A stretch of 45,631 bases of DNA from Verrucomicrobiales bacterium (GTDB lineage: Bacteria > Verrucomicrobiota > Verrucomicrobiia > Verrucomicrobiales > DEV007). Positions 3,482 to 41,710 of this stretch are shown in pieces (position 1 is the first letter of the stretch; the number at the start of each line of letters is the position of its first letter). The notes below the pieces were generated by a model, which did no database searches, had not been told where the DNA came from, and saw nothing but the letters and a program-made list of their open reading frames with translations. The stretch spans positions 26,088-71,718 of the forward strand of contig JARGOD010000012.1 in assembly GCA_029210205.1 (NCBI GenBank), written 5' to 3'. The position numbers and the translations under genes are program-made.

Positions 3482-5821
3482 ATGTTCGGGAACCCTTTGC
3501 GATTTGGCGTTGTTGCCATTTTCTTCTTAGTGAGCACTGCCGCTTTCGCAGAAGAGAAGTGGGATCACGTCATCGCAAACTACTGTCTCGATTGTCATGA
3601 CGGGAACAGTGAAAAGGGTGGTATCAACATGGAGTTGTGGCTCGATGGAGACTTTGTCGATCATGCCGGGAACTGGGAGCGGGTCCTACGCCAACTCGAC
3701 GCCCGTCAAATGCCGCCAGTCGGGGAGAACCGTCCTGACGAAGCGACCTATACTTCTCTCGTCGCCGGTTTCGAAAGCAGGTTGGATCGAGCGGCCGAGA
3801 TTCGTCCGAATCCGGGCCGAACAGACACTTTAAGGCGTCTGACTCGATTTGAATATCAAAATGCGATTCGTGATCTTCTTGCTCTTGAGATTGATGCGAC
3901 CGAACTGCTCCCTGCTGACGAATCGAGCCACGGCTTTGATAACATCACCGTAGGTACTCTCTCTCCGGGCCTTCTAGAGCGCTACTTGACTGCCGCTCAG
4001 AAAATCAGCCGCCTTGCTACGGGGCACAGCGGAGAGCGCATTGAGGAAAGAACGGTGAGACTGGCTCCTGATCTCACGCAAGAGGAACACGTCCCCGGGC
4101 TGCCTCTCGGAACCCGGGGTGGTGCGGTGATACCACACCTTTTCCCCGTCGATGGGGAATACGAGGTCCATGTCTTACTGACGCGCGACCGAAATGAGCT
4201 GATCGAGGGGCTCTCCCGTGAGCACGAGCTCCAGATTTTGGTGAACCGGGAACGGCAGGCAAGCTTGAGAGTGGCGCCACCGAAGAATAAGCAAGATCAC
4301 ACGACCTTCGATGCCAGGCTCAAAGCTCGAATCAAGGTCAAAGCCGGCTCTCAGGATCTGGGCGTCACTTTCGTAAAAAATCCCTCTTCGGTCGAGGAAA
4401 CGTTACGCCAGCCTTATGATGCGCACTTTAACTTCCATCGTCATCCGAGGATTTCGCCGGCCGTTTACCAGGTTTCGATCACGGGTCCTTTTGAAACGAC
4501 GGGAGCAGGAGATACCGCGAGCAGACGCCGAGTCTTCTCATATCTTCCCGAAGGAACCGATGACGAGATTGAAGCTGCCCGCAAAAACCTCGGTGCTCTT
4601 ATGCGAATCGCCTACCGGCGTCCGATTACAGAGGACGACTTCGACGAGATCATGGCTTTCTTTGAGGAGGGGCGAAAGGCGGGAAACTTTGAAGACGGCG
4701 TCGAACTTGCCCTCAGCGCCATTCTCGTGAGTCGAGACTTCCTTTTTAAGCTGGAGAAAGATCCCGAAGAAATGGCGGCAGAGACACCCTACCGGATCAA
4801 CAATCTGGAGCTTGCTTCCCGCCTTGCTTTTTTCCTTTGGAGCAGCCTCCCCGATGAAGAGCTTCTGCTTCTTGCTGAGCAGGGAGTTTTGCACCAGTCC
4901 GGTAAACTTCGGGAACAGGTCCGCCGTATGCTCGAAGACCCGCGATCGAAAGCACTCGTCACAAACTTCGCCGATCAGTGGCTCTATCTTCGGAATCTCG
5001 ATTCGATCACCCCGGACGGACGTCTTTTTCCGGGGTTCGACGAGAATCTGAGGCAGGCCTTCCGCGAGGAAACAAGTCGCCACGTCGAGCGTCTCATACT
5101 CGAAAACATGAGCGTGCTCGATTTGCTCGAAACCGACGATACGTTTTTGAACGAGCGACTCGCGAAGCATTACGGCGTCCCCCACATTTATGGGACACGG
5201 TTCAGGAGCGTCGACCTCAATCCGGAGTGGAAGAGAGGCGGTCTTTTTCGACAGGGGAGTATCCTCACGGTCACTTCTTACGCGAACCGAACCTCGCCAG
5301 TGATCCGTGGGCACTGGATATTGGAGAACATCCTTGGCACCCCGCCTCCGCCTCCCCCGCCTAACATTCCCGCCCTCGAAGATGCGGCTGTTTCTGCTGA
5401 TCTGCCGATTCGCGAGCGACTTGCAGCCCACCGTGAGAAGGCCGCCTGCGCTAGCTGTCACAACGTCATGGACCCAATCGGTTTTGCTCTCGAGAACTAT
5501 GATGCGGTTGGGCAGTGGCGGGCGCACGAGAACGGTCTCCCCGTCGATGCCACCGGAACTTCCCCAAGTGGAGCTGAGTTCGAAGGCATCTCCGGGCTCG
5601 AGGGACAAGTCCTCGCGCGACCGGAACTGTTTGTCCGCACCTTCACCGAAAAGCTTCTCACTTATGCTCTTGGTCGCGGTATCGAGCCAACTGACGCTCC
5701 TGCAATTCGTCGAGTGGTTCGCGAGTCTGCCGAGACCGGCTATGCCTTTGAATCGGTGATCCAATCACTTGTCACGAGTAGCCCCTTCACGATGCGAATG
5801 AGTGCTTCCGAGTCTCACTAA
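3482..5821 (+). CDS. Secreted DUF1592-family protein with two CxxCH motifs (DUF1587/1592/1588/1585/1595)
   Basis: 779 aa from the ATG at 3482. An upstream in-frame TTG at 3401 would add 27 residues ahead of a clear signal peptide (LRFGVVAIFFLVSTAAFA), so it was not used. A heme-c-like CLDCH lies at residues 35-39. DUF1587 follows around residue 110 (LRRLTRFEYQNAIRDLL), then a beta-rich middle region, DUF1595 near 373 (AYRRPITEDDF), DUF1592 near 442 (SRLAFFLWSSLPDEELL), DUF1588 near 650 with a second CASCH, and DUF1585 at the C-terminus. The proline run before DUF1588 is typical. The family is common in PVC bacteria and has no established reaction; an extracytoplasmic redox role is inferred from the CxxCH motifs. 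It is followed 57 bp later by a DUF1552 gene and then an ankyrin gene. Confidence 0.9.
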   Translation: MFGNPLRFGVVAIFFLVSTAAFAEEKWDHVIANYCLDCHDGNSEKGGINMELWLDGDFVDHAGNWERVLRQLDARQMPPVGENRPDEATYTSLVAGFESRLDRAAEIRPNPGRTDTLRRLTRFEYQNAIRDLLALEIDATELLPADESSHGFDNITVGTLSPGLLERYLTAAQKISRLATGHSGERIEERTVRLAPDLTQEEHVPGLPLGTRGGAVIPHLFPVDGEYEVHVLLTRDRNELIEGLSREHELQILVNRERQASLRVAPPKNKQDHTTFDARLKARIKVKAGSQDLGVTFVKNPSSVEETLRQPYDAHFNFHRHPRISPAVYQVSITGPFETTGAGDTASRRRVFSYLPEGTDDEIEAARKNLGALMRIAYRRPITEDDFDEIMAFFEEGRKAGNFEDGVELALSAILVSRDFLFKLEKDPEEMAAETPYRINNLELASRLAFFLWSSLPDEELLLLAEQGVLHQSGKLREQVRRMLEDPRSKALVTNFADQWLYLRNLDSITPDGRLFPGFDENLRQAFREETSRHVERLILENMSVLDLLETDDTFLNERLAKHYGVPHIYGTRFRSVDLNPEWKRGGLFRQGSILTVTSYANRTSPVIRGHWILENILGTPPPPPPPNIPALEDAAVSADLPIRERLAAHREKAACASCHNVMDPIGFALENYDAVGQWRAHENGLPVDATGTSPSGAEFEGISGLEGQVLARPELFVRTFTEKLLTYALGRGIEPTDAPAIRRVVRESAETGYAFESVIQSLVTSSPFTMRMSASESH

Positions 5822-5878
5822 TGTCACCAGCTGTAGAATTGACGATCACCCTCTCTCTGATTTATCCTCCAACCTATT

Positions 5879-7204
5879 ATGAATTTCCTGACTCGAAAGT
5901 CCCTGCAACGCCGGACCGTTTTACGCGGACTTGGAGCTTCGCTTTCGCTGCCGCTTCTCGACGCCATGATTCCTGCCGCGACCGCGCTTGGTGCGACTGC
6001 GGCGAAACCAGTGAAACGACTCGGCTATGTCTTCATGCCAATGGGTGCAGATCTCAGTCGCTGGACTCCCGGATCAGAGGATAATCTGGACACCCTTTCA
6101 CCGATTCTTGAATCGCTCGCATCAGTAAAGAATCAGGTGACCGCTTTCACCAATCTTGAGCTTCAGCCCGCTTACCCCGGGAGCCATGCAACTTCGAACT
6201 CAGCTTTTCTGAGTGCTGCCCGGGCTAAGCTCACTGAAAGCACGGACTACTATCTCGGAACGACCGCCGACCAGATCGCCGCGAAAGAAATTGGACACGA
6301 GACTCAGCTTCCATCTCTTGAGCTCGCGATGGACATGATGCAAACCGTTGGTCAGTGCGACAATGGTTATGCCTGTGTCTATCAAAACAATCTGAGCTGG
6401 TCGTCGCCGACAACTCCACTGTCCGCTGAAGCTCACCCGCGACTCGTCTTCGAGAAGCTCTTCGGAGAAGGTGGTTCCAAAGCGGATCGTCAGGCCGCTT
6501 TGCGGAAAAGGTCCAGCCTTCTCGATTTTGTCAAAGAGGACATGGCGAGCCTGAAGCGTGAACTCGGCTCCGCTGACCGCGAGAAGGTTGATCACTACCT
6601 CGACTCGATCCGGGAAGTTGAGCGCCGCATTCAAAAGGCAGAGGTCAGTGTCAGGGAAAATCCTGAGCCTGATCTCGACCGCCCCGTCGGCGTCCCCGAT
6701 TCCTATCGGGATCATGCCCGACTTATGTTCGATCTTCAACTCCTTGCCCTTCAGGGGGACATGACCCGCATTATCAGCTTTCAGCTTGCCCGCGAGACAA
6801 GCAACCGAACCTACACGGAGATTGGCATATCAGATCCACACCACCCGCTGTCTCACCATGGTAATGATCCAGGCAAGATCGAGCGAATGTCGAAGATCAA
6901 TGCTTTCCACGTTTCGCTCTTTGCCGAGTATCTTGAGAAGCTTGCCGCGACTCCCGAGGGTAATGGCTCACTTCTTGATCAGTCGCTGATTCTTTATGGC
7001 AGCGGAATTGGAAATCCCAACGTGCATGATCATACGAATCTTCCGATTCTCGTTGCCGGGGGTCAGGCTGCTGGCGTGAAAGGCAATCGTCACCTCAGTT
7101 ACGACAAGCCGGTTCCACTTGCCAATCTCCATCTGACGATGCTTCACAAGGCAGGCGTGAGAATCGACAAGTTTGGTGACAGTGATGGAATGGTAAGCCT
7201 TTAG
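5879..7204 (+). CDS. DUF1552 (HXXSHH) Tat-exported protein
   Basis: 441 aa. The N-terminus holds a twin-arginine motif (QRRTVLRGLG, residues 10-19) followed by a hydrophobic stretch, so export as a folded, perhaps cofactor-bearing protein is likely. The family-defining H-x-x-S-H-H is present as HPLSHH at residues 322-327 and is probably a metal site. Near the C-terminus are LYGSGIGNPNVHDHTNLP and LAGG-type segments resembling DUF1501 proteins. No reaction is known for the family. The gene lies between the DUF1592 cytochrome-like gene (57 bp upstream) and the secreted ankyrin gene (ATG 2 bases after its stop), so the three are probably one operon and one machine. Confidence 0.9.
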   Translation: MNFLTRKSLQRRTVLRGLGASLSLPLLDAMIPAATALGATAAKPVKRLGYVFMPMGADLSRWTPGSEDNLDTLSPILESLASVKNQVTAFTNLELQPAYPGSHATSNSAFLSAARAKLTESTDYYLGTTADQIAAKEIGHETQLPSLELAMDMMQTVGQCDNGYACVYQNNLSWSSPTTPLSAEAHPRLVFEKLFGEGGSKADRQAALRKRSSLLDFVKEDMASLKRELGSADREKVDHYLDSIREVERRIQKAEVSVRENPEPDLDRPVGVPDSYRDHARLMFDLQLLALQGDMTRIISFQLARETSNRTYTEIGISDPHHPLSHHGNDPGKIERMSKINAFHVSLFAEYLEKLAATPEGNGSLLDQSLILYGSGIGNPNVHDHTNLPILVAGGQAAGVKGNRHLSYDKPVPLANLHLTMLHKAGVRIDKFGDSDGMVSL

Positions 7205-7205
7205 A

Positions 7206-8594
7206 ATGACCCGACTTCTCCTCGTCGTATTCGTGCTCGCTGTTTTCGGCCTCACGGTTAAAGGTTCCGAGCCGCCATTCATTCAGGCAGCTTACGAGGA
7301 TCAAACGGAGTTGGTCGCTCAACTCATCGAGGATGGCTCCGATGTGAACCAGACTAACGACTATGGGGTCGCTGCTCTTTCACTCGCGTGTCAGAACGGG
7401 AACGCAAAAATCGTGAAGATGCTCCTCGAAGCGGGGGCTGATCCTGACACAAGCTTAAAAGGCGGGGAGACTGCGCTCATGACGGCCGCCCGAACCGGTC
7501 GCCCCGAACCGGTGGCACTTTTGCTATCTCATGGAGCAGAAGTCGAGGCGAAAGACTGGAAGCAACAGTGTGCTCTCATGTGGGCGGTTGCTGAAGGTCA
7601 CAAAGAAGTCGCAGGAATTCTCCTCAAAGCGGGAGCTGATCCTGAACGAACCTTGAAATCGGGGTTCACTCCTCTGTTCTTTGCCGCTCGAAATGGACAC
7701 CGCGAGGTCGTGGAGCTGCTCTTGAGTTTTGGTGTTGATCCGACGATCGCCTCTGCCAACGAGACAAAGGCACGAAAAGGAATCTCAAAGGGTACTACCG
7801 CTCTTCGACTCGCCGTTGAGAACGGGCACTTCGAGACGGCAATCACTCTTCTCGACGCCGGAGTTGATCCAGGCGATGAGCAATCCGGTCATTCACCTCT
7901 TCATGTTTTATCCTGGGTGAGGAAACCAAATCGAGGTGATGGAGAAGACGGCCTCCCTCCTCCAGCCATCAAAGGGGATCTCACCACCCTCGATTTTGCC
8001 CGTCTTCTCGTAAAGAAATACGATGCTGAGGTGGATCAACCGATCTCGAACCGTTCAACTGCTGGTCCAAAGTTTGGAACGCGAGGGGCAACCCCACTGT
8101 TGCTCGCCTGTCGAACGGTCGACTTGCCCTATTTGAAGTTACTTCACGAACTGGGAGCGAATCTCGAGGCGACGGATCAGGAAGGATCCACTGCCCTTCT
8201 TACGGCTGCAGGAGTCGGGAGTCGGAATCCGGAGGAAGAGGCGGGCGTTGAATCAGAAGCGATTGAAATGGTTCGCTGGCTCCTTGAGCGAGGTGCCGGG
8301 GTCAACGCGGTGAATCGAAATCGCGAAACTGCGATGCATGGCGCCGCCTACCGTAACTGGCCGAAGATGGTCAACCTTCTTGCGGAGGCTGGTGCCGACA
8401 TTGAAATCTGGAATCAGTCAAACAAACGCCGCTGGACGCCTCTCCTTATTGCGCAAGGTTTCCGCCCCGGGAATTTCAAACCTTCCGCCGCGACTGAGGA
8501 GGCCATCGCTTTTGTTATGAAAGCGAATGGCTTCGCTCCCCCATCCGCTCCCGAACGACCGATTGTTGGAAAGCCCAAAGCCTACGAGCCTTGA
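7206..8594 (+). CDS. Secreted ankyrin-repeat protein
   Basis: 462 aa. A Sec signal (MTRLLLVVFVLAVFGLTVKG) is followed by roughly nine ankyrin repeats covering most of the chain, seen as recurring units such as ALSLACQNGNAKIVKMLLEA, ALMTAARTGRPEPVALLLSH and TPLFFAARNGHREVVELLLS. Around residues 235-290 the repeats are interrupted by a longer, proline-rich loop segment. There is no catalytic domain, so a scaffold or partner-binding role outside the cytoplasm is the simplest reading. Only one base separates it from the DUF1552 stop, which implies co-expression with the DUF1592 and DUF1552 proteins. Confidence 0.9.
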   Translation: MTRLLLVVFVLAVFGLTVKGSEPPFIQAAYEDQTELVAQLIEDGSDVNQTNDYGVAALSLACQNGNAKIVKMLLEAGADPDTSLKGGETALMTAARTGRPEPVALLLSHGAEVEAKDWKQQCALMWAVAEGHKEVAGILLKAGADPERTLKSGFTPLFFAARNGHREVVELLLSFGVDPTIASANETKARKGISKGTTALRLAVENGHFETAITLLDAGVDPGDEQSGHSPLHVLSWVRKPNRGDGEDGLPPPAIKGDLTTLDFARLLVKKYDAEVDQPISNRSTAGPKFGTRGATPLLLACRTVDLPYLKLLHELGANLEATDQEGSTALLTAAGVGSRNPEEEAGVESEAIEMVRWLLERGAGVNAVNRNRETAMHGAAYRNWPKMVNLLAEAGADIEIWNQSNKRRWTPLLIAQGFRPGNFKPSAATEEAIAFVMKANGFAPPSAPERPIVGKPKAYEP

Positions 8595-14809: not shown

Positions 14810-16941
14810 AGGGTCTTTCCCTCACTGTTTTGATCGGGTCTCTGGCGATGTTGACCCTCCGTACTGGTTCGGTGGGTGCCGAAACCGAAACGGTAGACCT
14901 TTGCGTCTACGGGGGCACCAGCGGAGGAGTCATCGCGGCGGTGCAGGGTGCACGCATGGGGAAACGCGTAATCATCGTCCATCCCGGGCTTCACCTCGGA
15001 GGGATGACATCAGGTGGTCTCAGTGCCGTTGACATTGGTGAGCCGCGCAGCGTCGGCGGCCTGACTCGTGAGTATTTCACCCGACTCGTGGGCCGCTACG
15101 GAAAGCGGTTGATGTGGGAGGACGGCTTCCACAAAGAGGGCAAAGGAGGTCCGGCTACCGGTGGCGCCTACTCGATCGAGCCTCATGTCGCAGAAGAGGT
15201 TTTCGATGAAATGGCCCGCGAAGCCGGGATCATCATTTGGAAAGAGGCCAGACTTGTTTCTGTAGAGAAAAGTGGAGCTGAGATCAGGTCATTGCGCTGT
15301 GACGACGGTCGTGTCGTTGGAGCAAAACAGTTCATCGATGCCACCTACGAAGGCGATCTTATGGCTGCGGCCGGAGTCAGCTACACCCTGATGCGCGAAG
15401 GGAACGACCAATATGGCGAAACCTACAACGGGATTCATTACAATGAGAAGTTTCTACCGCAGAAATCCCTTGCTCAGCCGGGAGAGAACGGGCGCCTTCC
15501 GAGTGGATATGGGGTTTGGGATCGCGATTTCCCGCTGGATCCCTATGTGGTGAAAGGCGATCCCTCAAGCGGATTGCTTCCCCTCATCAATGAAGGTCCA
15601 ACAGGTGTCCCGGGAGAGTCAGCTCCAGGTGTGCAGGCGTATTGCTATCGCCTCTGCCTGACGACGGATGAGTCTAACATGATTCCTATTCATCCGCCCG
15701 AAAACTACGATCCGGCCCGCTACGAAATCGTTGCGCGCTTCATCGAAGCCTGCATCAAAAACGGAGATGAGATGGATCTTCGCTGGTTTTCCAAGCACGA
15801 TGCACTTCCGAACTCAAAATGGGATTTCAATACCGCAACCTTCGGGGGCAACCTTCCCGGCTTGAGCTGGGAATGGCCTGAGGCCTCTTACGCGGAACGC
15901 GAGCGGCTTGCGGGCGAACTGGAAAATTACCACCGGGGCCTTTTCCACTTTCTCCGGACTGATCCCCGGGTTCCAGAGCAGGTCAAAATGGACCTCGCGC
16001 GCTTTGGTCTGCCCCGGGACGAATTTCAGGAAACCGGTGGATGGCCACATCAGGTCTATGTGAGGGAGGGTAGGCGCATGGTGAGTGATGTGGTCATGAC
16101 TGAGCATCATACCTTTGGGCGGGAATTCGTAGTTCACCCGGTGAGCCTTGGCAGCTATGGCACCGACGCCCACGAGATTCGCCGAATCGTTAAAGATGGG
16201 GTGGTGATCCGGGAGGGAAAAATCGCGACCGGCCGGGGAGGGTTCGGCCCCTATCAGATCGGATACGGGGCCATAGTTCCGAGGAAATCTGAATGTACAA
16301 ACCTGTTGGTTTCATTCGCTTTGTCAGCCAGCCATTCCGCCTTCGCCAGTATTCGCATGGAGCCTCCCTTCATGATCACAAGTCAGTCGGCAGCGACCGC
16401 TGCCTGTCTGGCAATCGACGCGGACTTCGCCATTCAGGACGTGGATCAGGAGAACCTGCGCACCCGGCTTCTCGACGATGGACAGATCCTCGACTGGATT
16501 GGGAGAGGCTCGCGACCAGCGTTGAAGGGTATTATACTGGATGATAAAGATGCCGCCTTCTCTGGAGAGTGGACACAAAGCAACGCAGAGGAGCCCGTCA
16601 TCGGATCATCATACAGACACGATGGAAATCGTCGGGACCCGATCCAGACCGCCGTCTTCGAAACGACGGTTCCAGAGGCCGGACTCTACGCGGTTAGCCT
16701 GCTCTATTCCCCGCATGAAAATCGTTCCAGTCGGGTAAAATTTAGGGTTCACTTGCCCACCGGCGGGCCCACTATCACAATCAACCAGCGTGAGCCACTT
16801 CTCGCCGAAGGGGTTCCTCGCGCGGTCTGCAAAGTTTCGCTTTCCCCGACCTCTCCAGCCCGATTCGTCGTGTCCAACGAAGGAAGCGATGGAATCGTCA
16901 CCGTCGACGGCCTGCAACTCATCCGGATCAAAGACAATTAA
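14806..16941 (+). CDS. Exported FAD-dependent oxidoreductase with C-terminal golvesin/xanthan-lyase-like beta domain
   Basis: 711 aa. Signal peptide at residues 1-25, then a Rossmann FAD site of the PF12831 type ([20 protein letters not shown], residues 30-49, with [14 protein letters not shown] shortly after). The last 130 residues (from about 580) form a beta-rich domain like those at the end of golvesins and xanthan lyases, with [20 protein letters not shown] and [11 protein letters not shown] near its end, probably for carbohydrate binding. The substrate is unknown; extracytoplasmic oxidation of a sugar hydroxyl fits the gene company. It overlaps the preceding sulfatase (ATGA) and is followed 25 bp later by the BNR protein. 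Confidence 0.8.
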
Positions 16942-16966
16942 ACTCACCATCTCTGATCATTCCAAA

Positions 16967-18106
16967 ATGAAAACCACCCTGATTCTTCAAGTCATTACCA
17001 GTCTTGTGCTCCTAACCCACGCTTTCAGTGAGGATGGGCCTGACCTGCCCTTCGTCGACCTGTCCGGCGACACCAAGCGCCACACCATTATCGCCGCCGG
17101 GACGGAGGACGTGTATCAGGGGCACCCGACGACACTGCTGATGCCTGACGAAAAAACCATTTTCACGGTCTGGTGCATCGACCACGGAGGCTCCGCCGGA
17201 CCGATGGCGCGCAGTGACGACGGGGGTCTCAACTGGACGCGGCTCGACGATACCCTGCCTCCCGGTTACTCCACTCACCAGAACTGCCCGAGCATTTATC
17301 GTCTCGTCGATCCTGAAGGGCAGGCCCGGCTCTGGGTTTGGTCGGCGGCGCTGGGAACACGCCAGGGGCCCGGGATGCCGAGTATCATGAGTGAAGATGA
17401 GGGCAAAACCTGGACGGAGATGCCGCCTCTCGGCCTCCCCTGCGTCATGACGTTCAGCAGCATCGTGAAACTCAAGGACGGGCGCTATCTTGGTCTCTAT
17501 CACAAAGGGCCCGAAGGAAAGGACAAATCACCTCTCGAAGTCTATCAAATGATCACCGCCGATGGCGGCCTGACCTGGTCGGAGCCAAGAATGGTTGCGG
17601 CCGTTGAAGGCAAAGACCCCTGTGAGCCCTTTGTCTTTCGTTCGCCTGACGGCAACGAGCTCTGTTGTCTTCTGCGGGAAAACAAGCGCACCGGACGGAG
17701 TCTCGTCATGTTTTCATCTGACGAAGGCAAAACCTGGAGCACGCCGGTCGACACGCCCTGGGGACTGAGCGGTGATCGTCACATCGGAGTTCAGCTCGAA
17801 GACGGACGTTGGGTTTTCGCGTTTCGTGATCAGGCCCCTGACAGTCCGACGAAACACCACTTCGTCGCCTGGGTCGGAAGCTACGACGACATCAAGAACG
17901 GAACGCCGGGCGAATATCGGATCAAGTTGCTCCACAGCCATGCCAAGCGGGTCGGCGACTGTGGCTACCCCGGTGTCGAACTGCTGCCGGACGGCACCCT
18001 TGTTATCACGACTTATATCAAATACGAGGAAGGTCCCGAAAAGCACTCTGTCGTAACGACTCGTTTTAAAATCGATGAAACCGATGCGCTACTCAAAAGT
18101 CTGTAG
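16967..18106 (+). CDS. Secreted BNR/Asp-box six-bladed-propeller protein, sialidase-like
   Basis: 379 aa from the ATG at 16967, where the signal peptide ([19 protein letters not shown]) begins. Four Asp boxes fit SxDxGxxW: residues 83-90 (SDDGGLNW), 142-149 (SEDEGKTW), 197-204 (TADGGLTW) and 250-257 (SSDEGKTW). This gives a sialidase-type propeller. A clear FRIP/RIP arginine motif near the N-terminus, usual in GH33, was not found, so sialidase activity is uncertain and another glycan-binding or hydrolase role is possible. It lies in the sulfatase/oxidoreductase run, and its end overlaps the following sulfatase gene. Confidence 0.75.
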
Positions 18107-32310: not shown

Positions 32311-33723
32311 TTATCCGATGATCTCCGGAATCACCTGCCCGCCAAATTGCGAGAGCTGCTTGTACCTTCCGCCGTGGAAGTAGGTCAGCTTGTTGTCATC
32401 GAGACCTAACAGATTCAGAATTGTGCAGTGCACGTCGCGGATCGGGTGAACGCAGTCGACGGCCTCAGCTCCGATTTCGTCGGTCGCTCCCACGATGGTT
32501 CCTTTCTTCACGCCGCCTCCAGCGAAGAGCATCGACATGGCGTCGACGTTGTGGCCGCGTCCGAGGGAGTAGACTCCGCCTCGCTTGTTGTTGTCGGGTG
32601 TGCGACCAAACTCACCGCACCAGATCACGAGAGTGTCGTCGAGCATGCCGCGGTTCTTGAGATCTTTGATCAATCCAGCCATGCCCTTGTCGACACTGCG
32701 GATTCGTGATTTGTGACCGCGCTCGAGGTAGTCATGGCTGTCCCATCCACCCGAGAAAATCTGCACAAAGCGAACGCCTTTCTCGACCATGCGACGGGCC
32801 ATGAGACACTGGCGACCGAAGGTTTCGGTGTCCTTGTGATCGAGGCCGTACATTTCTTTGACGTGCTCCGGCTCACTTTCAATATCGACGACTCCCGGCA
32901 CTTCCATCTGCATGCGGTAAGCGAGCTCGTAGTTCTCGATCCGGGATGCGAGGGCATCGTGCTGAGGATTCGCGTCCGCGTGCTTTTGATTGAGGAAGGC
33001 CAATTCATCGAGAGCGCGGCGTTGATGCTCGCGGCTTTTGAAGGATTGGGACTGCAGGTCGAGAATCGGGGATCCTTCAGGACGAAGGCGGGTGCCCTGA
33101 TAGTGTGCTGGAAGGAAGCCATTGCTCCAGTTCGTTGATCCGCCCTGAGGCAGCGCGGCTTCGGTCATGACGACAAAGCCGGGAAGGTTCTGGTTCGATG
33201 AACCGAGACCGTAGGTGGTCCAGGCGCCGAGTGCCGGATCAGCTCCGAGGCGACTTCCAGTGTTCATGTGGAAGAGGGCTTCCGGGTGGTTGAGTGATTC
33301 CGCCTGGCATCCGCGGTAGTTGCAGAGCTCGTCGGCCACTTCCGGATCTGCCATGTGGACCCACTGGTCGCTCATCTCGATTCCTGATTGACCGACCTTG
33401 CGGGAGCCGAAGGGACTGCCGACGTAGAAGCGGAAGCCGTTTGCGAGTCCTGCCGTGCTTTTGGACTCGGTTTTGTGGAGCTCCTGAAGCTTAGGCTTCG
33501 GATCGAACGTGTCGACGTGACTCGGACCACCTTCCATGAAGAGCATGATGACGTTCTTAGCTTTCGCAGGGTGCATCGGCTTCTTCACTGAGAGAGGAGA
33601 AGGAGCATCGGTCGCGAGCATGTCGCTCATGGCAACGCTGCCGAGGGTGGCTCCGAGACCGTAGAGGAACTCGCGGCGGGATCCGGCGGTGGAGAGGGGT
33701 CGTGAACAGATGGAATGCTTCAT
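32311..33723 (-). CDS. DUF1501 Tat-exported protein, copy A
   Basis: 470 aa from the ATG at 33723; an upstream start adds 13 residues before the Tat signal. The twin-arginine segment is SRREFLYGLGATLG. DUF1501 blocks follow: FMEGGPSHVDTFDPKP, GWDSHDYL, WCGEFGRTP, GRGHNVDAM and HCTILNLLGL. These resemble the metal ligands of the alkaline phosphatase/sulfatase superfamily, to which DUF1501 is related. The reaction is unknown. The partner DUF1549/DUF1553 gene lies upstream (34203-37061) but is separated by the GxxExxY cassette, whereas in the sister module the gap is 20 bp. Confidence 0.9.
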   Translation of the reverse strand: MKHSICSRPLSTAGSRREFLYGLGATLGSVAMSDMLATDAPSPLSVKKPMHPAKAKNVIMLFMEGGPSHVDTFDPKPKLQELHKTESKSTAGLANGFRFYVGSPFGSRKVGQSGIEMSDQWVHMADPEVADELCNYRGCQAESLNHPEALFHMNTGSRLGADPALGAWTTYGLGSSNQNLPGFVVMTEAALPQGGSTNWSNGFLPAHYQGTRLRPEGSPILDLQSQSFKSREHQRRALDELAFLNQKHADANPQHDALASRIENYELAYRMQMEVPGVVDIESEPEHVKEMYGLDHKDTETFGRQCLMARRMVEKGVRFVQIFSGGWDSHDYLERGHKSRIRSVDKGMAGLIKDLKNRGMLDDTLVIWCGEFGRTPDNNKRGGVYSLGRGHNVDAMSMLFAGGGVKKGTIVGATDEIGAEAVDCVHPIRDVHCTILNLLGLDDNKLTYFHGGRYKQLSQFGGQVIPEIIG

Positions 33724-33754
33724 GGCTTGGATGGGGGCTTGGCTTCTGGAGGTT

Positions 33755-34196
33755 GGAACCACTGATTGGCACTAATGGGACACTGATGTTTTAAATGATG
33801 AAGCGCTTCCATTCGACGGATTCGATTGGGGCGAAGTTGATGAGGTATCCGACGGGTTTCTTCGTGATTCGCATGTAGTTGAGAAGTTGTGCTTCATGTT
33901 CGGGCAGGAGTTTAGAGACGGCTTTTAGCTCCACTACAATTTCGCGATGAGTGATTAGATCGGGGATATATCGCTTTTTCAGCTCTATGTCTTTGTAGAA
34001 GACCTTCAGCGTGGAACTCGATCGTGCGCTGCTCCAATTCGATTTCCAGACTCTCCTGAAAAATCTCTTCGAGAAGCCCACCTCCAAGCTCCTGATGAAC
34101 GGCAAACACAGCCCCCATCAACGCATAGCCTTCATCAGAAAATCGATTCTTTGGCTTCATCAAATTTGTGTTCGATCAGTGTCAATTAGTGGTTTC
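33755..34196. mobile_element. GxxExxY cassette bounded by imperfect inverted repeats
   Basis: The left arm begins GGAACCACTGATTGGCACTA at 33755, with a further CACTGAT by 33790. The right arm, 34175-34196, reads in reverse complement GAAACCACTAATTGACACTG and on. The first 22 bases agree at 18 positions and all four differences are transitions. The arms enclose only the GxxExxY remnant. The element sits exactly between the partner genes of a PSCyt/DUF1501 module that are 20 bp apart in the sister copy, which supports insertion. No transposase is present. Confidence 0.6.
33791..34160 (-). pseudogene. Frameshifted GxxExxY (PD-(D/E)XK nuclease-like) gene
   Basis: The N-terminal half reads in one frame from the ATG at 34160 (GYALMGAVFAVHQELGGGLL, then the motif GLLEEIF with Phe for Tyr, to QRTIEF). 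The C-terminal half continues in another frame (TLKVFYKDIELKKRYIPDLI, then VVELKAVSKLLPEHEAQLLN and NYMRITKKPVGYLINF). The switch is at about 34013, and the junction lacks roughly four residues relative to the family, as a deletion of about 11 bases would leave. The nuclease-core Asp and ELK residues survive. Either a true pseudogene or a sequence error; the missing residues favour the former. Confidence 0.75.
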
Positions 34197-34202: not shown

Positions 34203-37061
34203 TCAATACAGATAAACAAACTCATTCGAGTTAAACAGCAGCAGACAAACATCGGCCAACGCTCTCGTCTCTGCTCCGACATCAGCCGCTTTCAAATCAG
34301 GCTGATAGTCCTGAAAGGCAGGAAGAATTTCGGTGTAGTCGAAAGGCTCTCCGGAGAATTCTTCCACCAGTGTCCGGGTGATCTCCTGCGGATACTCGGG
34401 ACCATCTGGATTGATGCCTTGATGATACTCCGTCATGTCGGCAAGATAGATGGTGAGGCGATCGAGCTCGATCTGGTCCGGCTCGCGACCCAGGGTCTTG
34501 AGGAAAGCCTGACGAATTTGCTCTTTCGGATCGCTGGCCACTTGTTCGAGGCGATGGGCAAAGGCTACCGAACGGTCGGTGATCTGATCGCTGTTCAGGA
34601 GGGTGAATGCCTGAGGCGAAACCGCGGCGGAGTCCCGCATCTCGCACGAATCGTTCGGATTCGGGCGATTGAATAGCTCGAGGAAAGGATCCGCCATGCC
34701 GCGAACCTTATAAGCATAGACGGTGCGACGGTTACGGCGCTCAGGCAGTGGATCGGGTTGATAGGCCGGAGCGAGCGAGAACTGGATCATGCGTGGCTGC
34801 AGGGCGACTTCCATGTTGATCTCAGGCATGATGGGAAGACCTCCCATGGCGGTTGCGAGCTCGCCAGTGAGTTCCAGTGTCGTATCGCGGATTTCCTCGG
34901 CGGTGAGACGGCGGGTTGGAAAGTAAGCGAGTAGCGCATTGTCAGGATCCTTTGTCGCAAGCTCTTCCCGGTTCGGGTGATGGCCAGCTTGACGATAAAC
35001 ATCTGACGTCATGATGAGACGATGCAGGCGCTTCATGGTCCAGCCGTTTTCGACGAAGTCGGATGCGAGCCAGTCGAGTAGCTCAGGGTGAGACGGCTTC
35101 TTCCCTTTCACGCCAAAGTTGTTCGGGTTGCCGGCAATGGCCTGGCCGAAGTGATACTGCCAGATGCGATTCACGAATGAGCGTGCCGTGAGCGGGTTCT
35201 TCGGATCGGCGATCCACTGCGCAAGCGCAAGGCGACGACCTTTGACCGATCCGGGAAGGGCGTGAGGGTCTTTCTGATTAGCACTTGGGACAGGGACACC
35301 AAGCGAGCTCAGCACGCCGGGCGAGACCTTTTCTCCGGGAGCTTCAAGCGCACCTCCGGTGAGGATGAAACTCTCCGGGCTCCAGCTTTCTTCATGCTTC
35401 GGATTGACCCGGAGTTCCCTTGCGCTGCCCTTATTCTTGATCGCGCTGGAGTAGACGCTCTGGGCCATGGGCTCGTAGCGGTCAAGGCGGCGCTTCCAGA
35501 TCCAGACGTCCTGCTCACGGACCTTGAGTTGTCCCTGCTCGACGATGTCGAGTCCGACGTGGCGCGGTGGCTTCACCTCGTCGGGAAGATCTTTGCGCTC
35601 CGCGTGTCCGATGTAGTCGAGTCCATTCTCTTTGAACCAGGCCTTTGCAGCGGCCTCGCGCTTGTTTACGAGTTTGTCTTTCTCCTTCGTCGCGAAGTCG
35701 AGCATGCCCTGCACGAACTCGCGTCCTTCATCCATGTGTTCGAGGTTCTCTTCTTCGAGAAACGGGACAGGACGCTCTGCCATTTGCGTCGTCGCGAAGG
35801 CAGCGGTCATCCGATAGTAGTCGCGGGTGGGTAGTGGATCGAACTTATGATCGTGGCACTGGAAGCAGCGCATCGTCGTCGCGAGGAAGGTCTGGCCGAC
35901 GGAGTTCACGACATCGTCGAGGTAGATCTTGCGCGCCTCTGCCTCTTTGACCATCGCATTGTCATAGGGGCCCATGCGGAGAAAACCGGTCGCGACGATC
36001 TGCTCGGCTTCGACCTCGGTGTAGTCTCCGCTGAGACGAGTCGGGTGGATCTGGTCGGGTCCGAGGCGATGCTCGACGGAGATGTCAGCAAGTTCGTCGC
36101 CGGCAAGCTGCTCAAGGACGAAACGGTTGTAGGGCTTGTCTTCGTTGAAGGCACGAATGATATAGTCGCGGTAGCGCCACGCATTGGAGCGCTCGTAGTC
36201 GTTCGACATGCCGCCGGTGTCGGCGTAGCGGGCGATATCGAACCAGTGCTGCGCCCAGCGCTCGCCGTAGTGGGGGCTGGCGAGGAGGCGATCGATCAAG
36301 CCTTCCCAGGCCTCGTCCGTGTTCTTTTCCGAGGCGGAGTGGAAATTGGTAATCTCCTCGGGGGTCGGTGGGAGACCGGTGAGATCAAAAGTCGCACGAC
36401 GAATCAGAGTGAGAGGATCCGCCTCTGGTGCAGGCGCGAAGCCGGATTCGTCGAGCTTTCGTTGCACAAATCCATCAATGGGATTCCCGGCGCCGGCCGG
36501 AACTTCGGGAGCGCTGACCGGAAGGAAGGCCCAGATGTCTTCCGGATTGTAGCGGCGGAAGGTCCACTCATCGCCAAGACCACCGCTGGTCTGGACGATC
36601 ATGCCGTCTTCGTTGACGGTCTGTTTTGCTTCCTCCTCGCGGATCGTGAGCTGGAGCTCTTCATCCGCCCAGGGAGCGCCCATGTCGATCCACTGCTGAA
36701 GCCATCCGATTTGCTCCTCGGTAAGTCGATCATTTTCCTTCGGAGGCATTTCCCAGTCAGGGTCGGCCCATTTCACGGTTTCGATGATCGCACTCGCCGC
36801 GGCATCGCCGGGGATGAGCACGTCTTTTCCGAAATACTCTCCGCCTTTGAGAAGGGCCTCGCGGCTGACCATGTCGAAGTCGCCTTTGATCTTTTCGCGA
36901 TCGTCGCCGTGGCAGCCGTTGCACTTCTCGGATAGAAGCGGCTGAATTTTGAGCGTGAACAGCTTTTCACCGTCCGTGGCAGCATGGCTGCTTGCCGCAG
37001 CCGCGAGAAAAAGAGCTGCCGCGAAAAAGGCGCGAGAGGAAGACAAAAAAACAGCATTCAT
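34203..37061 (-). CDS. Secreted PSCyt1-DUF1549-DUF1553 multidomain protein, copy A
   Basis: 952 aa. Signal peptide to about residue 28, then a PSCyt1 heme-c-like domain with CNGCH at 47-51 and a MPPKE distal segment near 105. DUF1549 spans about 190-410 (IRRATFDLTGLPPTPEEI, HYGERWAQHWFDIARYADT) and contains a second CFQCHDHKFDPLPTRDYY near 398. DUF1553 spans about 605-880 (LALAQWIADPKNPLTARSFV, then NRIW). Extracytoplasmic electron transfer is inferred; no reaction is established. The leader shares sequence blocks with that of the paralogue at 41710, and a 12-bp stem with a bulge ends just before the ATG. Confidence 0.9.
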   Translation of the reverse strand: MNAVFLSSSRAFFAAALFLAAAASSHAATDGEKLFTLKIQPLLSEKCNGCHGDDREKIKGDFDMVSREALLKGGEYFGKDVLIPGDAAASAIIETVKWADPDWEMPPKENDRLTEEQIGWLQQWIDMGAPWADEELQLTIREEEAKQTVNEDGMIVQTSGGLGDEWTFRRYNPEDIWAFLPVSAPEVPAGAGNPIDGFVQRKLDESGFAPAPEADPLTLIRRATFDLTGLPPTPEEITNFHSASEKNTDEAWEGLIDRLLASPHYGERWAQHWFDIARYADTGGMSNDYERSNAWRYRDYIIRAFNEDKPYNRFVLEQLAGDELADISVEHRLGPDQIHPTRLSGDYTEVEAEQIVATGFLRMGPYDNAMVKEAEARKIYLDDVVNSVGQTFLATTMRCFQCHDHKFDPLPTRDYYRMTAAFATTQMAERPVPFLEEENLEHMDEGREFVQGMLDFATKEKDKLVNKREAAAKAWFKENGLDYIGHAERKDLPDEVKPPRHVGLDIVEQGQLKVREQDVWIWKRRLDRYEPMAQSVYSSAIKNKGSARELRVNPKHEESWSPESFILTGGALEAPGEKVSPGVLSSLGVPVPSANQKDPHALPGSVKGRRLALAQWIADPKNPLTARSFVNRIWQYHFGQAIAGNPNNFGVKGKKPSHPELLDWLASDFVENGWTMKRLHRLIMTSDVYRQAGHHPNREELATKDPDNALLAYFPTRRLTAEEIRDTTLELTGELATAMGGLPIMPEINMEVALQPRMIQFSLAPAYQPDPLPERRNRRTVYAYKVRGMADPFLELFNRPNPNDSCEMRDSAAVSPQAFTLLNSDQITDRSVAFAHRLEQVASDPKEQIRQAFLKTLGREPDQIELDRLTIYLADMTEYHQGINPDGPEYPQEITRTLVEEFSGEPFDYTEILPAFQDYQPDLKAADVGAETRALADVCLLLFNSNEFVYLY

Positions 37062-37098: not shown

Positions 37099-37115
37099 GC
37101 AAATGCTGTTTTTCA

Positions 37116-37147: not shown

Positions 37148-37152
37148 CTCTC

Positions 37153-37503: not shown

Positions 37504-37584
37504 GATGTCGTGACGACTATGTCTGCCGTTTCATTCAAAAAAGGAAGAGAAAATTTTCTTCGTTTTCGTTTCGTGTTGCCAAGG

Positions 37585-37743
37585 CACCGCAGAGTTTAAC
37601 CACTGAAAACTCAGAATACACTGAAGGCATCAATGATGCCTGATATCCATCCGCCTCAATTTTATCTACCAAGTTTCAGTGTATTCAGTGCCTTCTGTGG
37701 TTCCAAAAATGCAAAGCCAGGGCTCCGCAGAATTTAACCACTG
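37585..37743. repeat. Inverted-repeat element with flanking direct repeats (AACCACTGA family)
   Basis: Arms at 37598-37625 and 37675-37702 agree at 23 of 28 positions (both end AATACACTGAA and begin AACCAC in reverse complement). The longer unit CCGCAGAxTTTAACCACTG occurs directly repeated at 37588-37605 and 37726-37743. It fills most of the 254-bp gap between the 116-aa gene and the DUF1501 gene and holds no coding sequence. A third member of the family seen at 22639 and 33755. Confidence 0.6.
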
Positions 37744-37757
37744 CACCCCAAAGCAGT

Positions 37758-39110
37758 CTAAGCCACAATGTCCTGGGCGACATTTCCGTGCACATCCGTG
37801 AGTCGGAAGTCACGACCGGCGTAGCGGTAGGTCAGCTTTTTGTGATTCAACCCTAACAGGTGCATAATCGTCGCGTGCCAGTCATGGATGTGCATTTTGT
37901 TTTCGACGGCTTCGTTGCCGTGCTCGTCGGTCGCGCCGTAGCGCATGCCTCCTTTGGCACCGCCTCCGGCCATCCAGGTGGTGAAGCCTCTGGAGTTGTG
38001 TCCGCGACCGTCACCTTCTCCGGTGGCGGTGCGGCCGAATTCGCCTCCCCAGAGAATGAGGGTGTCCTTGAGCATGTCGCGATCTTTCAGATCCTGGAGC
38101 AGAGCCGCGATGGGGCCGTCGGTCTCGCCGCAGGTCTGGGTGAGGTTTTCCTTCAACTTGTCGTGGTGATCCCAGTTGCCGTGAACGATTTCCACGAAAC
38201 GCACGCCGCGTTCGACCATGCGACGGGCGAGGAGGCAATGCTTGCCGAATGATTCTGACTCACCGCCGATACCGTAAGACTCGAGCGTGTCGGGTGTCTC
38301 GGACTCGTAGTCGAGGAGCTCCGGCATCGAGGTCTGCATGTGATAGGCGAGCTCGGTGGACTGGATCATGCCCTCGGTCTCAGGAGAGTGCACATCCCGC
38401 TCGAGCTGGTTCCGGTTCAGCCACTGCACGAAGTCGAGCTGCTTCCGCTGCGCGTCAGCGTCCATCTTCGTGTTCCGGATGTTCGGCACGCGGGGAGGTC
38501 CTGCGGTGGGGTTGTCGCCGCCGATCATCGTGGCCTGGTAGTAGGCAGGGAGAAAAGCACTGCTGTAATCGCCCTTTTGGCCGCCGCCGAGAACGACGTA
38601 GCCGGGCACGTTGGTATTCTCAGTGCCGAGACCGTAGAGCGCCCACGCGCCCATCGAGGGCCGGATAAAATTCACGCTGCCAGTATGCATCGCGGTGACA
38701 GCTGGCTGGTGATTCGACGAGTCACCGTGCATGCTGTTGATGAGGCAGAGGTCATCGGCATGCTGCGCGACGTTTGGGAAGAGCTCGGAGATCCAGAGAC
38801 CGCTCTCGCCGTGCTGGTTGAACTCGAAGGGGGATCCCATCAGATCGCGGCCGCCATATTTCCCGGGCTTGCCGGAGTCTTTGGTGAGCTGTGGTTTGTA
38901 ATCGAACGTGTCGACATGTGAGGGGGCGCCACGCATCGAGAGGTAGATGACGTTCTTCGCGCGGGGAGCGAAGTGCGGCTGCTTTGCAGCCAGTGGACCG
39001 GTCTTCGCGGCGAGAGCTCTTTCCTCGGTGAGGGCGGTCATGGCGATGCCTCCCAGTCCGGTGGTCAGGGTCTGGAGAGCGCCGCGGCGGGTGAAAGCGT
39101 TTTGAAACAT
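37758..39110 (-). CDS. DUF1501 Tat-exported protein, copy B
   Basis: 450 aa. Tat signal FTRRGALQTLTTGLGG at the N-terminus, then the family blocks YLSMRGAPSHVDTFDYKP, HGNWDHHDKL, WGGEFGRTA, GRGHNSRGFTTWMAGG and WHATIMHLLGL. It differs from copy A in using a shorter leader and an uncharged segment before the first block. It follows the 859-aa PSCyt1 protein by 20 bp, so the two are an operon. The metal-site pattern is that of the alkaline phosphatase superfamily; the substrate is unknown. Confidence 0.9.
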   Translation of the reverse strand: MFQNAFTRRGALQTLTTGLGGIAMTALTEERALAAKTGPLAAKQPHFAPRAKNVIYLSMRGAPSHVDTFDYKPQLTKDSGKPGKYGGRDLMGSPFEFNQHGESGLWISELFPNVAQHADDLCLINSMHGDSSNHQPAVTAMHTGSVNFIRPSMGAWALYGLGTENTNVPGYVVLGGGQKGDYSSAFLPAYYQATMIGGDNPTAGPPRVPNIRNTKMDADAQRKQLDFVQWLNRNQLERDVHSPETEGMIQSTELAYHMQTSMPELLDYESETPDTLESYGIGGESESFGKHCLLARRMVERGVRFVEIVHGNWDHHDKLKENLTQTCGETDGPIAALLQDLKDRDMLKDTLILWGGEFGRTATGEGDGRGHNSRGFTTWMAGGGAKGGMRYGATDEHGNEAVENKMHIHDWHATIMHLLGLNHKKLTYRYAGRDFRLTDVHGNVAQDIVA

Positions 39111-39130
39111 GATAGGACGAAGGTGGAGGA

Positions 39131-41710
39131 TTAATGGATCGTGCGGAACTCGGCGCTCATCATGAGGGCCTGGCAGAGTGCGGCGAGTTTGGCGGTTTCC
39201 GGAGAAAGTGGTTCGGTCGGTTCAGTGGTTGGAGCGGGTTCATTTCGTTTCCCTTTTTTGCCCTTCCCTTTCATCGCACCCCTGTCGCGACCGGGCCCCG
39301 GAAGCGCTGCCGGTTCAATTACCGGAGGTTCCCCGGGATCGAATTCCCTGAGGAATTGCATGCTGTGGTCGATCTCCATCGTTGTCGCGGCCCTGTTGTA
39401 CGCAAGCAGGAAAGCATTGCTGACCTGTTCCTTCATCGCGGGGAAGCGGTTTTGGAGCAAGTTGGCCATCGCTTCTGCTTGAACCTGCACGAGCTCGCTA
39501 TTCATGAGATGCAGCGACTGAGGCGCGACATTGGTGGTGCTGCGTTGTCCGACCGTTCCCTGAGGATCAGGAAAATCGAAGAGCCCGAGCTCGTCCGGCA
39601 GCGCATCGCGAAGCACCGGAAGGTAGAGCGAGCGGCCACGAAACAAAGCCGTGTTGAATGTTTCCTCCCCTTCCCCGCGGCGACCCCCAAGACGGGAGTT
39701 CCCGGCTTCGTAGGCCATCGAGCTTTCCGGTCGGGTGCGATCGAGAAGGCCGCTGACAAGTAACATCTGATCACGGAGTGCTTCGGCATCCAGTTGCCGT
39801 GGCTTGGCACGCCAGTGAGTCGTGTTGGCCGGATCCTTGGCGTAGTGCGCTTCGTCGTAGGTCGAGGCGAGTTGGTAGGTCTCGCTGAGCACGATCTCGC
39901 GGATGAGGGTCTTGATGGACCAGCCGCTTTCCATAAATCGGATCGCGAGAAAGTCGAGCAGCTCGAGGCTCGTGGGAGGCAATCCGGTCGTTCCGAAGTT
40001 GTCCATTGTTTCGACAATGGGTGATCCGGTGAGATGCAGCCAGATGCGGTTCACCATGACCCGGGCGGTGAGCGGATTTTGCGTCGAGGTGATCCATTGC
40101 GCGAGCTCGAGCCGTCCACTCTCGTCGGTCGGCAGCTCCGGAGCATCAGTTAAGTCGAGCACCTGCAGGAAACCACGATCGACTTCCTGAGCGATCTTGT
40201 TCACGTCTCCCGCAATGAGGATGTTCGAATTTTCGACGGTGCCTTCCTGGGCGCCCATCGCGAACGTTTTCTCGCTGCCGTCAGGATTGAGAAATTCCAG
40301 TTCACTCTCGGTGCGCATGATTTGTTGACGGATTCGCACGAGATCCCGCTGCTCGATTCCATTTTCCTCGAGCATGTCCTTATCCGGCGCTGCTCCTTCG
40401 GCTTTTCCTTTACCCTTACCACCCTTGCCGCCTGTCATGCCCCGCATCTCGCGGTTCTTCTCGCGTAGATCAGCGAGGTGCTGCACCTTCTCTTCGTAGA
40501 GATTGCTCTGGTCCTCGCTTAATCCCGCGTCAGCGATGGGCAAGTCCAGCAACTCCGTGGTGCGGTGATTCTGATTGCCGGCGATTGTGCCCCACAGCGT
40601 GTCAGTGCTTTGGAAAATGCCAGCCATGGCGTAGTAATCGGCGGTCGGGATGGGGTCGAACTTGTGATCGTGGCAGCGGGCGCAGGATACGGTCGTGCCG
40701 AGGAATCCCCTAGTGACCGTGTCGATCTGTTCGTCGATGAGATTCATCGCAAAGACCTGCGGGTTTTTCTCATTCTGCTTCTTCGGTCCCAGCGCAAGAA
40801 ATCCGGTCGCGATAAGATTCTTCTGCCGGGTCTCATCGTTGGGAGCAGAGAGGAGATCCCCGGCGAGGTGCTCGGTGAGGAGCTGGTCGTAGGGCTTGTC
40901 CTCGTTGAACGAGTCGATTACGTAGTTCCGGAAACGCCACGCATAGGGGTAGACAATGTTCAGGGTGCCGCTGGATTCGCCGTAGCGAACGACGTCGAGC
41001 CAATGCCTTCCCCAGCGCTCGCCGTAATGTTCGGAGGCGAGAAGCTGATCGACTTTATCGGTGAAGGCGGCCTCGCGATTTACTTTGAACGCTTTGGTGA
41101 AGGCAACGACTTCGGGCGGTGTTGGTGGGAGTCCGGTAAGGTCGAAAGTGATGCGTCGCAACAATGTCAGGGCATCTGCAGACCCGACCGGCGTCACGCC
41201 CATCTCCGTTTGCATGCCGCCGATAATGGCATCGATCGATTTTTCCGCGGGGCGGGCCGGCTTTTGGTAGGACCAGTGTTCCCTCCCTTTCTCGATGTCG
41301 ATGCCGGAGTCCTCCACCTCGAAGGTTTCCCGTTCGCGAGGATCAGGAGCACCCATTTTGACCCACTCAGTCAGCTTCGCGATGACATCATCCGGCATCT
41401 TCTGCTTTGGTGGCATTTCAAAGTCAGGATCGTTCCAGGTCACCGCATCAACAAAGAGGCTGTATTCCCAGTTCTCGTCGTCAAAGAGAGAACCAGTGCT
41501 TCCGCCTTCGCGCATGCCTTCGCGCGTGTCGAGATAGAGACCGCCGCGAGATTCCCCCTGCTCGACCGAGTGACACTCGTAGCAGTATTTGATCAGGTTT
41601 GGGCGAACATGAGTCTCGAAGTAGTCGAGGTGCTCAGGAGAGATCGCTTCTTCCGATTGTGCGTTTGTCAGGAAGACGGATAGAAGGCTGAAAAGAATGA
41701 AGCTTCTCAT
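39131..41710 (-). CDS. Secreted PSCyt1-DUF1549-DUF1553 multidomain protein, copy B
   Basis: 859 aa. Signal peptide to about residue 18, PSCyt1 heme motif CYECH at 43-47, MPPKQK distal segment near 100, DUF1549 about 155-360 (LRRITFDLTGLPPTPPEV, HYGERWGRHWLDVVRYGES) with a second CARCHDHKFDPIPTADYY near 341, and DUF1553 about 528-765 (LELAQWITSTQNPLTARVMV, then NRIW). Two Lys/Gly-rich runs interrupt it: GGKGGKGKGKAEG near 426 and MKGKGKKGKRNEP near 812. Copy A lacks them. It starts the module with DUF1501 copy B 20 bp downstream. Confidence 0.9.
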   Translation of the reverse strand: MRSFILFSLLSVFLTNAQSEEAISPEHLDYFETHVRPNLIKYCYECHSVEQGESRGGLYLDTREGMREGGSTGSLFDDENWEYSLFVDAVTWNDPDFEMPPKQKMPDDVIAKLTEWVKMGAPDPRERETFEVEDSGIDIEKGREHWSYQKPARPAEKSIDAIIGGMQTEMGVTPVGSADALTLLRRITFDLTGLPPTPPEVVAFTKAFKVNREAAFTDKVDQLLASEHYGERWGRHWLDVVRYGESSGTLNIVYPYAWRFRNYVIDSFNEDKPYDQLLTEHLAGDLLSAPNDETRQKNLIATGFLALGPKKQNEKNPQVFAMNLIDEQIDTVTRGFLGTTVSCARCHDHKFDPIPTADYYAMAGIFQSTDTLWGTIAGNQNHRTTELLDLPIADAGLSEDQSNLYEEKVQHLADLREKNREMRGMTGGKGGKGKGKAEGAAPDKDMLEENGIEQRDLVRIRQQIMRTESELEFLNPDGSEKTFAMGAQEGTVENSNILIAGDVNKIAQEVDRGFLQVLDLTDAPELPTDESGRLELAQWITSTQNPLTARVMVNRIWLHLTGSPIVETMDNFGTTGLPPTSLELLDFLAIRFMESGWSIKTLIREIVLSETYQLASTYDEAHYAKDPANTTHWRAKPRQLDAEALRDQMLLVSGLLDRTRPESSMAYEAGNSRLGGRRGEGEETFNTALFRGRSLYLPVLRDALPDELGLFDFPDPQGTVGQRSTTNVAPQSLHLMNSELVQVQAEAMANLLQNRFPAMKEQVSNAFLLAYNRAATTMEIDHSMQFLREFDPGEPPVIEPAALPGPGRDRGAMKGKGKKGKRNEPAPTTEPTEPLSPETAKLAALCQALMMSAEFRTIH

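Follow-up and report, generated by a model that had tools for sequence, protein, structure and literature searches.

The three loci of this stretch that pair a CxxCH protein with a twin-arginine protein very probably represent a single conserved module of two extracytoplasmic proteins, whose component A is a DUF1501 or DUF1552 protein and whose component B is a DUF1549/DUF1553, DUF1592 or, elsewhere in the phylum, DUF1800 protein. The best overall account of the module, credible at about even probability, is that A would be a catalytic unit with a His-rich pocket and B its dedicated partner, heme being optional. The window, by which is meant the whole stretch of DNA analysed (45,631 nucleotides), lies on contig C107 of a 4.9 Mb draft assembly that is 86.6% complete, and the features on which the argument turns are these.

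3482..5821, + strand: DUF1592-type partner (DUF1587/1595/1592/1588/1585; Pfam)
3584..3598, + strand: first CxxCH of the DUF1592 protein (C35/C38/H39 invariant in the 15-row alignment A4)
5447..5461, + strand: second CxxCH of the DUF1592 protein, within DUF1588 and followed by xxxDPxG (C656/C659/H660 invariant in the 15-row alignment A4)
5879..7204, + strand: DUF1552 (HXXSHH) protein with RR signal, a sulfatase-superfamily homologue (Pfam E 5e-94)
6185..6187, + strand: His103 of the DUF1552 protein, at the sulfatase nucleophile position (21/22 rows)
6842..6856, + strand: His322-His326 (HXXSHH) of the DUF1552 protein (H322 in 21/22 rows, H326 in 22/22)
32311..33762, - strand: DUF1501 protein with RR signal (Pfam E 2e-139 or better)
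34203..37061, - strand: PSCyt1/DUF1549/DUF1553 partner (Pfam), with CxxCH at 36909-36923 and 35853-35867
37758..39110, - strand: DUF1501 protein, RR being residues 8-9 (Pfam E 2e-139 or better)
37998..38000, - strand: His371 of the 37758-39110 DUF1501 protein
38031..38042, - strand: Glu357-Phe-Gly-Arg360 of the same protein, aligned with the sulfatase D-N/H-G motif
38163..38171, - strand: Asp314-x-His316 of the same protein
38709..38711, - strand: His134 of the same protein, at the sulfatase formylglycine position
39131..41710, - strand: PSCyt1/DUF1549/DUF1553 partner (Pfam)
40670..40684, - strand: second CxxCH of the 39131..41710 partner, in DUF1549, in a 10-residue segment missing from CxxCH-free homologues
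41570..41584, - strand: first CxxCH of the 39131..41710 partner, in PSCyt1, a domain optional in the family

As the sequence-only reading had described them, all three window pairs have the named domains by Pfam, two CxxCH motifs in each partner and an RR motif in each Tat protein, and the window partners score above the Pfam cut-off for DUF1549/DUF1553 (PSCyt2/PSD1). The DUF1592-type gene is taken from the ATG at 3482, in an open frame that runs from a TTG at 3401 (3401-5821+). Its product has two CxxCH and an N terminus of Sec type, read by eye like the other signal peptides, and no Pfam match besides DUF1587/1595/1592/1588/1585; PSCyt1 has no Pfam match in it, and the first CxxCH was read from the sequence. 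The twin arginine is present in 103/103 DUF1501 rows, both window proteins being counted twice, and in DUF1552 R11 is found in 21 of 22 rows and R12 in all 22. A search of NCBIfam with 10 proteins gave 0 matches. Elsewhere in the window an ankyrin-repeat ORF (7206-8594) that overlaps a UxuA-like ORF begins 2 bases past the last base of the DUF1552 gene, and a NANM-kelch/SSF fusion, a DHDPS-family gene and a BNR_2 protein (3-3253 and 16790-18106) look like genes of sialic-acid use.

The description of these as three independent loci is sound as to the loci and understates their number, there being more than 60 such pairs genome-wide. Profile searches, with split matches merged, found 45 DUF1501, 43 DUF1553, 22 DUF1552 and 22 DUF1592 genes in the assembly; two of 47 DUF1501 matches (on C30 and at C43:11712) lie inside sulfatase ORFs and were excluded. 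The sequence-only reading had proposed counting how often the families adjoin, and in this genome each of the 43 DUF1553 loci has a DUF1501 gene of its own no more than 5 kb away, which accounts for 43 of the 45 DUF1501 genes; the two always share a strand, DUF1553 is upstream in 41/43 pairs and the distance is below 2.5 kb in 41/43. The DUF1501 genes left over lie on C47, where the gene reaches the contig end, and on C24. Likewise, a same-strand DUF1592 gene lies no more than 2.6 kb from 21 of the 22 DUF1552 genes and is upstream in 12 of the 21. Gaps between the two genes run from -228 to +145 bases in 32 of 35 clean-sequence pairs of this genome, some of the overlaps arising partly because the first start codon was chosen. 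ORFs of this genome were dropped if they held masked runs or were shorter than 500/600 aa, which kept 39/44 for DUF1553, 17/22 for DUF1592 and 40/42 for DUF1501. DUF1800 has no match in this genome, and no DUF1800 partner was found here; the control genome, that of Caulobacter vibrioides, gave matches to DUF1800 as well as to DUF1501. Both kinds of pair adjoin on C22 (L144) and C174 (L125), and the unpaired DUF1552 gene (L147, on C139) is close to an ORF with a CTICH motif.

Across the phylum the same association is seen as matching presence and absence, with shared ancestry ignored in both comparisons of genome sets: DUF1552 and DUF1592 occur in the identical 7 of 145 genomes (this one included), and the genomes with DUF1553 (44) or DUF1800 (31) above cut-off together make up exactly the 65 of 145 in which DUF1501 is above cut-off, four more genomes having weak DUF1501 matches alone. 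The co-occurrence proposed as a check of the earlier claim is seen for both pairings. In the six other genomes the DUF1552:DUF1592 counts are equal (10:10, 1:1, 1:1, 1:1, 5:5 and 7:7), and DUF1592 lies within 3 kb of 21/25 DUF1552 genes, the other 4 being non-adjacent. A same-strand DUF1501 gene stands within 2.5 kb of 43/44 DUF1800 places (44 of 50 listed places were entered, those out being 4 of genome G066, one fragment and one below cut-off) and of 51/54 DUF1553 places (split matches merged, the places of G000, G066, G102 and G086 left out). Seen from the other side, among 102 listed DUF1501 places there are 8, 4 of them partial matches, for which no partner is listed within 2.5 kb. At least 590 named loci were found, and in the best 80 of these DUF1553 is within 1.5 kb in 69 and absent in 8, 3 more being cut off.

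The two kinds of pair are also related on both sides. Profile comparison joins DUF1501 to DUF1552 at 99.3% (E 7e-21). Among the partners the whole cores match at 93% for DUF1553-DUF1592, 81% for DUF1553-DUF1800 and 55% for DUF1592-DUF1800, and the pieces at 90% for DUF1549-DUF1592, 82% for DUF1553-DUF1585, 75% for DUF1553-DUF1800 and 88% for DUF1585-DUF1800; the N-terminal pieces score low against DUF1800 (DUF1549 17%, DUF1592 0.2-0.3%). CxxCH-free DUF1553 proteins match DUF1800 at 95.9% (E 5e-9, 343 columns) and DUF1592 at 66%. Reversed-profile controls gave 0.1-5.4% wherever they were run, the 99.3% for DUF1501-DUF1552 standing without one. The partner homology is sensitive to how the profiles are cut, cruder profiles giving 50% and 10%, then 0.1%, 3.5% and 15%; a cruder, motif-based core extraction kept 3 DUF1800 rows and 60 of 124 DUF1553 rows, and cutting by columns was used instead. 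On these comparisons DUF1553, DUF1592 and DUF1800 share a common core and form one superfamily. DUF1501 scores only 0.1-0.3% against DUF1553, DUF1592 or DUF1800, so component A is no duplicate of component B.

Paralogous pairs within this genome co-diverge (35 pairs, Mantel r 0.89, a value reached in 0 of 2000 shuffles), as do its 25 two-CxxCH pairs (r 0.87) and a wider set of 114 pairs (r 0.92; 0 of 500 shuffles as high, also when shuffled within CxxCH classes). Such co-divergence shows joint inheritance, not contact. Together with the two-sided homology, the one-to-one pairing and the matching presence and absence, it upholds the proposal that the two pairings are forms of a single system. 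One-to-one pairing and co-divergence, retained where CxxCH is missing, would also suit a B protein that serves as chaperone or anchor, binding exported A for assembly or for holding at the surface, with heme in a regulatory or structural role; the B proteins are, however, large, and some bear further domains (of 8 scanned, picked for odd size or motif count, laminin-G in 2 and WD40 in 1), and this explanation is regarded as rather improbable.

With respect to component A, hhalign against 21 sulfatases of this genome matches the C-terminal part of DUF1501 at 91.8% and the N-terminal part of DUF1552 at 94.6% (reversed controls 0.5% and 0.2%), so that the kinship of DUF1501 with sulfatases, which had been put forward as family knowledge, holds and extends to DUF1552. 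In the alkaline phosphatase/sulfatase superfamily the nucleophile is Ser, Thr or Cys, the first metal-ligand pair is D-D and the second is D-N or D-H. The nucleophile position is instead His in 114/114 DUF1501 and 21/22 DUF1552 proteins. In DUF1501 this His stands where sulfatases have the formylglycine Cys, nine residues ahead of T/S-G; the N-terminal match of DUF1501 to sulfatases is itself weak (0.8%), and the assignment is made because DUF1552 matches sulfatases at 73.7% and DUF1501 matches DUF1552 at 93.3%, with equal spacing to T/S-G by a by-eye count. The D-N pair is replaced by E-F (Glu357, Phe358) in DUF1501 and by G-I in the window DUF1552 protein. At the first D-D place DUF1552 aligns M-P; DUF1501 aligns too weakly with sulfatases at that end for a direct comparison, and Asp70, near that place, is conserved in 100/103 DUF1501 rows.

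The residues that would line the rebuilt pocket are highly constant. H134, D314, H316, R360 and H371 are found in 114/114 DUF1501 proteins and E357 in 113, with one Asp; DUF1501 proteins linked to DUF1800 have the His, DxH, FGR and final His in 29/29, with Glu in 25 and Asp in 4 at the equivalent of E357. The fixed His of DUF1552, over 22 rows, are 103 (in 21), 322 (21), 326 (22) and 383 (20). Alignments A6 (61 DUF1501 proteins from the 80 loci) and A7 (40 DUF1553 proteins), each with two window proteins added, were hand-picked. Judged from the sulfatase positions, the conserved residues would converge in one pocket, and the His/Asp/Glu set of DUF1501 could bind another metal; that A is catalytic, with a metal pocket, seems about evenly balanced. 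A plain hydrolase of sulfatase or phosphatase type acting on sulfated glycans would account for the sulfatase homology and for the sulfatase genes that are enriched near the pairs and lie inside 3 of 43 of them, but with His at the formylglycine position and the D-N ligand pair absent it is highly improbable.

The heme motifs of component B are not universal. Among the 39 kept DUF1553 proteins of this genome CxxCH occurs twice in 27, once in 11 and not at all in 1, but three of the one-motif proteins may be undercounted, since the start of L123 and of L129 is close to a contig end and L132 extends beyond the sequence retrieved; in 61 DUF1553 proteins from other genomes the figures are 51, 10 and 0, and all 17 kept DUF1592 proteins of this genome have two. 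By contrast, CxxCH is missing from all 20 short DUF1553 proteins taken elsewhere in the phylum, a non-random sample since it was chosen by short open frames, and DUF1501 stands alongside in 19 of the 20 loci. In alignment, the DUF1549 CxxCH lies in a 10-residue segment that the CxxCH-free DUF1553 proteins lack, and the PSCyt1 domain is optional among proteins of the DUF1553 family. The pocket residues are unchanged in 18/18 DUF1501 proteins paired with CxxCH-free DUF1553, and none of 29 DUF1800 proteins from this phylum has a CxxCH. In a quickly built tree of 138 DUF1501 rows, which kept 24 of the 29 DUF1800-linked proteins, the 18 heme-free rows form one clade near heme-bearing divergent rows. 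The idea that heme was added late was rejected on account of that placement, with which gain and loss both fit.

The earlier view of the partner as a redox component thus finds no support as a general rule. Its fullest form, in which a two-heme protein is the essential electron carrier for a catalytic DUF1501 or DUF1552 metallo-protein, draws on the two CxxCH of 3/3 window partners and of most B proteins of this genome, on the match of the DUF1553-family profile, over PSCyt1, to c-type cytochrome stretches of solved structures (hydrazine synthase alpha and FoxE), and on the X183 heme domain of Cbp2D, which reduces LPMOs (PMC8981238, as far as its available text goes). CxxCH-free DUF1553 and DUF1800 partners nevertheless go with identical DUF1501 residues, and LPMO_10, the LPMO family searched, has 0 matches in this 86.6% complete assembly, so that an essential carrier is considered unlikely. 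With CxxCH in only some partners, heme is probably not central to the two-gene unit; electron transfer in those members that bear heme remains a tentative proposal, somewhat short of even probability. Otherwise the search of solved structures gave one chance match for profile A2, and none for A4 or for the DUF1592 protein alone.

The genomic surroundings add context. The three sulfatases noted in the window are confirmed, and the 4.9 Mb assembly has at least 151 sulfatase matches. Of 150 that were listed, 59 have a pair no more than 10 kb away where 28.5 would be expected, and 13 have one within 1.5 kb where 6.0 would be expected, in binomial comparisons that leave clustering aside; for DUF1501 pairs alone the excess is non-significant at 3 kb (P 0.14) and 5 kb (P 0.07). 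In 3/43 pairs (L107 and L116 on C7, L120 on C170) DUF1553 and DUF1501 are separated by a sulfatase gene on the same strand. The enrichment is context and does not identify a substrate. Four DUF1553 proteins (L107, L108, L113 and L116) have a long N-terminal extension, read as anti-sigma-like, and are encoded directly behind an ECF-type sigma gene. This arrangement, and the ECF regulator suggested for RB10051 of R. baltica in the accessible part of PMC2754498, are what would be expected of a B protein that detects substrate or redox state and signals through ECF sigma factors. The arrangement is found, however, in 4 of 44 DUF1553 ORFs of this genome and in 0 window pairs, the extensions of the two proteins scanned have no Pfam match, and a crude look at 61 other proteins gave 2 candidates; a sensor is very doubtful as a general account.

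Under the preferred reading, of A as catalytic unit and B as dedicated partner, component A would be exported folded via Tat and would have a sulfatase-like fold in which, with His at the nucleophile position and the D-N pair replaced, a His/Asp/Glu set is left that may bind metal: His134, Asp314, His316, Glu357 and His371 in the 37758-39110 protein, and His103, His322, His326 and His383 in DUF1552. Component B would hold A, the substrate or both. In many members, though not all, B would carry c-type heme sites, namely the optional N-terminal PSCyt1 domain and the core CxxCH segment at its fixed place, and in those pairs electrons may be exchanged between B and the pocket of A. The work done is envisaged as substrate-specific, on poly- or oligosaccharides, with which the dozens of paralogous pairs, the laminin-G domains of some partners and the sulfatase enrichment fit. 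Homology, pairing, co-divergence, residue conservation and optional CxxCH are properties of the module as observed; we infer complex formation, pocket geometry, metal, catalysis and substrate. A bolder proposal, that DUF1501 and DUF1552 are a new extracytoplasmic metallo-oxidoreductase class, with a His-rich metal site made from a sulfatase pocket, acting on glycans with a dedicated partner that in some lineages bears c-type hemes, is speculative and rather unlikely; were it true, the heme-bearing pairs would be a bacterial counterpart to an LPMO with its electron donor.

Such pairs, without known function, can be present by the dozen in Planctomycetes and Verrucomicrobia, 43 and 21 of the two kinds being found here, and the related partners, optional heme motifs, constant DUF1501 residues and His-rich DUF1552 counterpart turn an annotation puzzle into testable questions. 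The gene pair itself is already in print. In the available passages of He et al. (2017, PMC5615132), genes with PSCyt2 and PSCyt3 usually adjoin two unknown families; DUF1501 and DUF1552 are each counted three times in the text index of that paper, and the main text, so far as available, shows neither. DUF1501 clusters in PVC bacteria are credited to Kamneva 2012 in the accessible part of PMC4452313, and that of PMC2754498 gives R. baltica 41 occurrences of DUF1549 and as many of DUF1553. No single text naming DUF1501 with DUF1553, or DUF1552 with DUF1592, was found in the literature covered, most of the subscription literature lying outside it, and the DUF1501 literature, in the portions available, yielded nothing on partner homology, heme-free forms or the His position. 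Within the literature searched, what looks new is the homology of both components, the existence of heme-free members and the apparent rewiring of the sulfatase pocket; some of these families may already be grouped together in family databases.

Comparison with known systems places the module as follows. The pairings of PMC5615132 comprise the same domain families as those of the window, and the passages available draw no homology link between the pairings, analyse no residues and describe no heme-free forms. Conserved DUF1800-DUF1501 operon pairs with Tat-exported DUF1501 have been reported from proteobacteria and tied to chitin synthase genes (PMC5122149, in its available text); they are like the window pairs in the Tat-exported DUF1501 and in a DUF1800 partner homologous to DUF1553 and DUF1585 here, but differ in that 0/29 DUF1800 proteins of this phylum have CxxCH, as against two in each window partner. 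Cbp2D of Cellvibrio japonicus, which is secreted and combines DUF1587 with c-type heme domains (the accessible part of PMC8981238), has DUF1587 in common with the window DUF1592 protein, but it carries CBM2, X158 and X183, for which the window protein has no Pfam match, and the assembly has no LPMO_10. The sulfatases (PF00884), finally, are homologous to DUF1501 and DUF1552 by profile comparison, and differ from them in just those places, the formylglycine position and the D-N pair, at which DUF1501 and DUF1552 have His and, respectively, E-F or, in the window DUF1552 protein, G-I.
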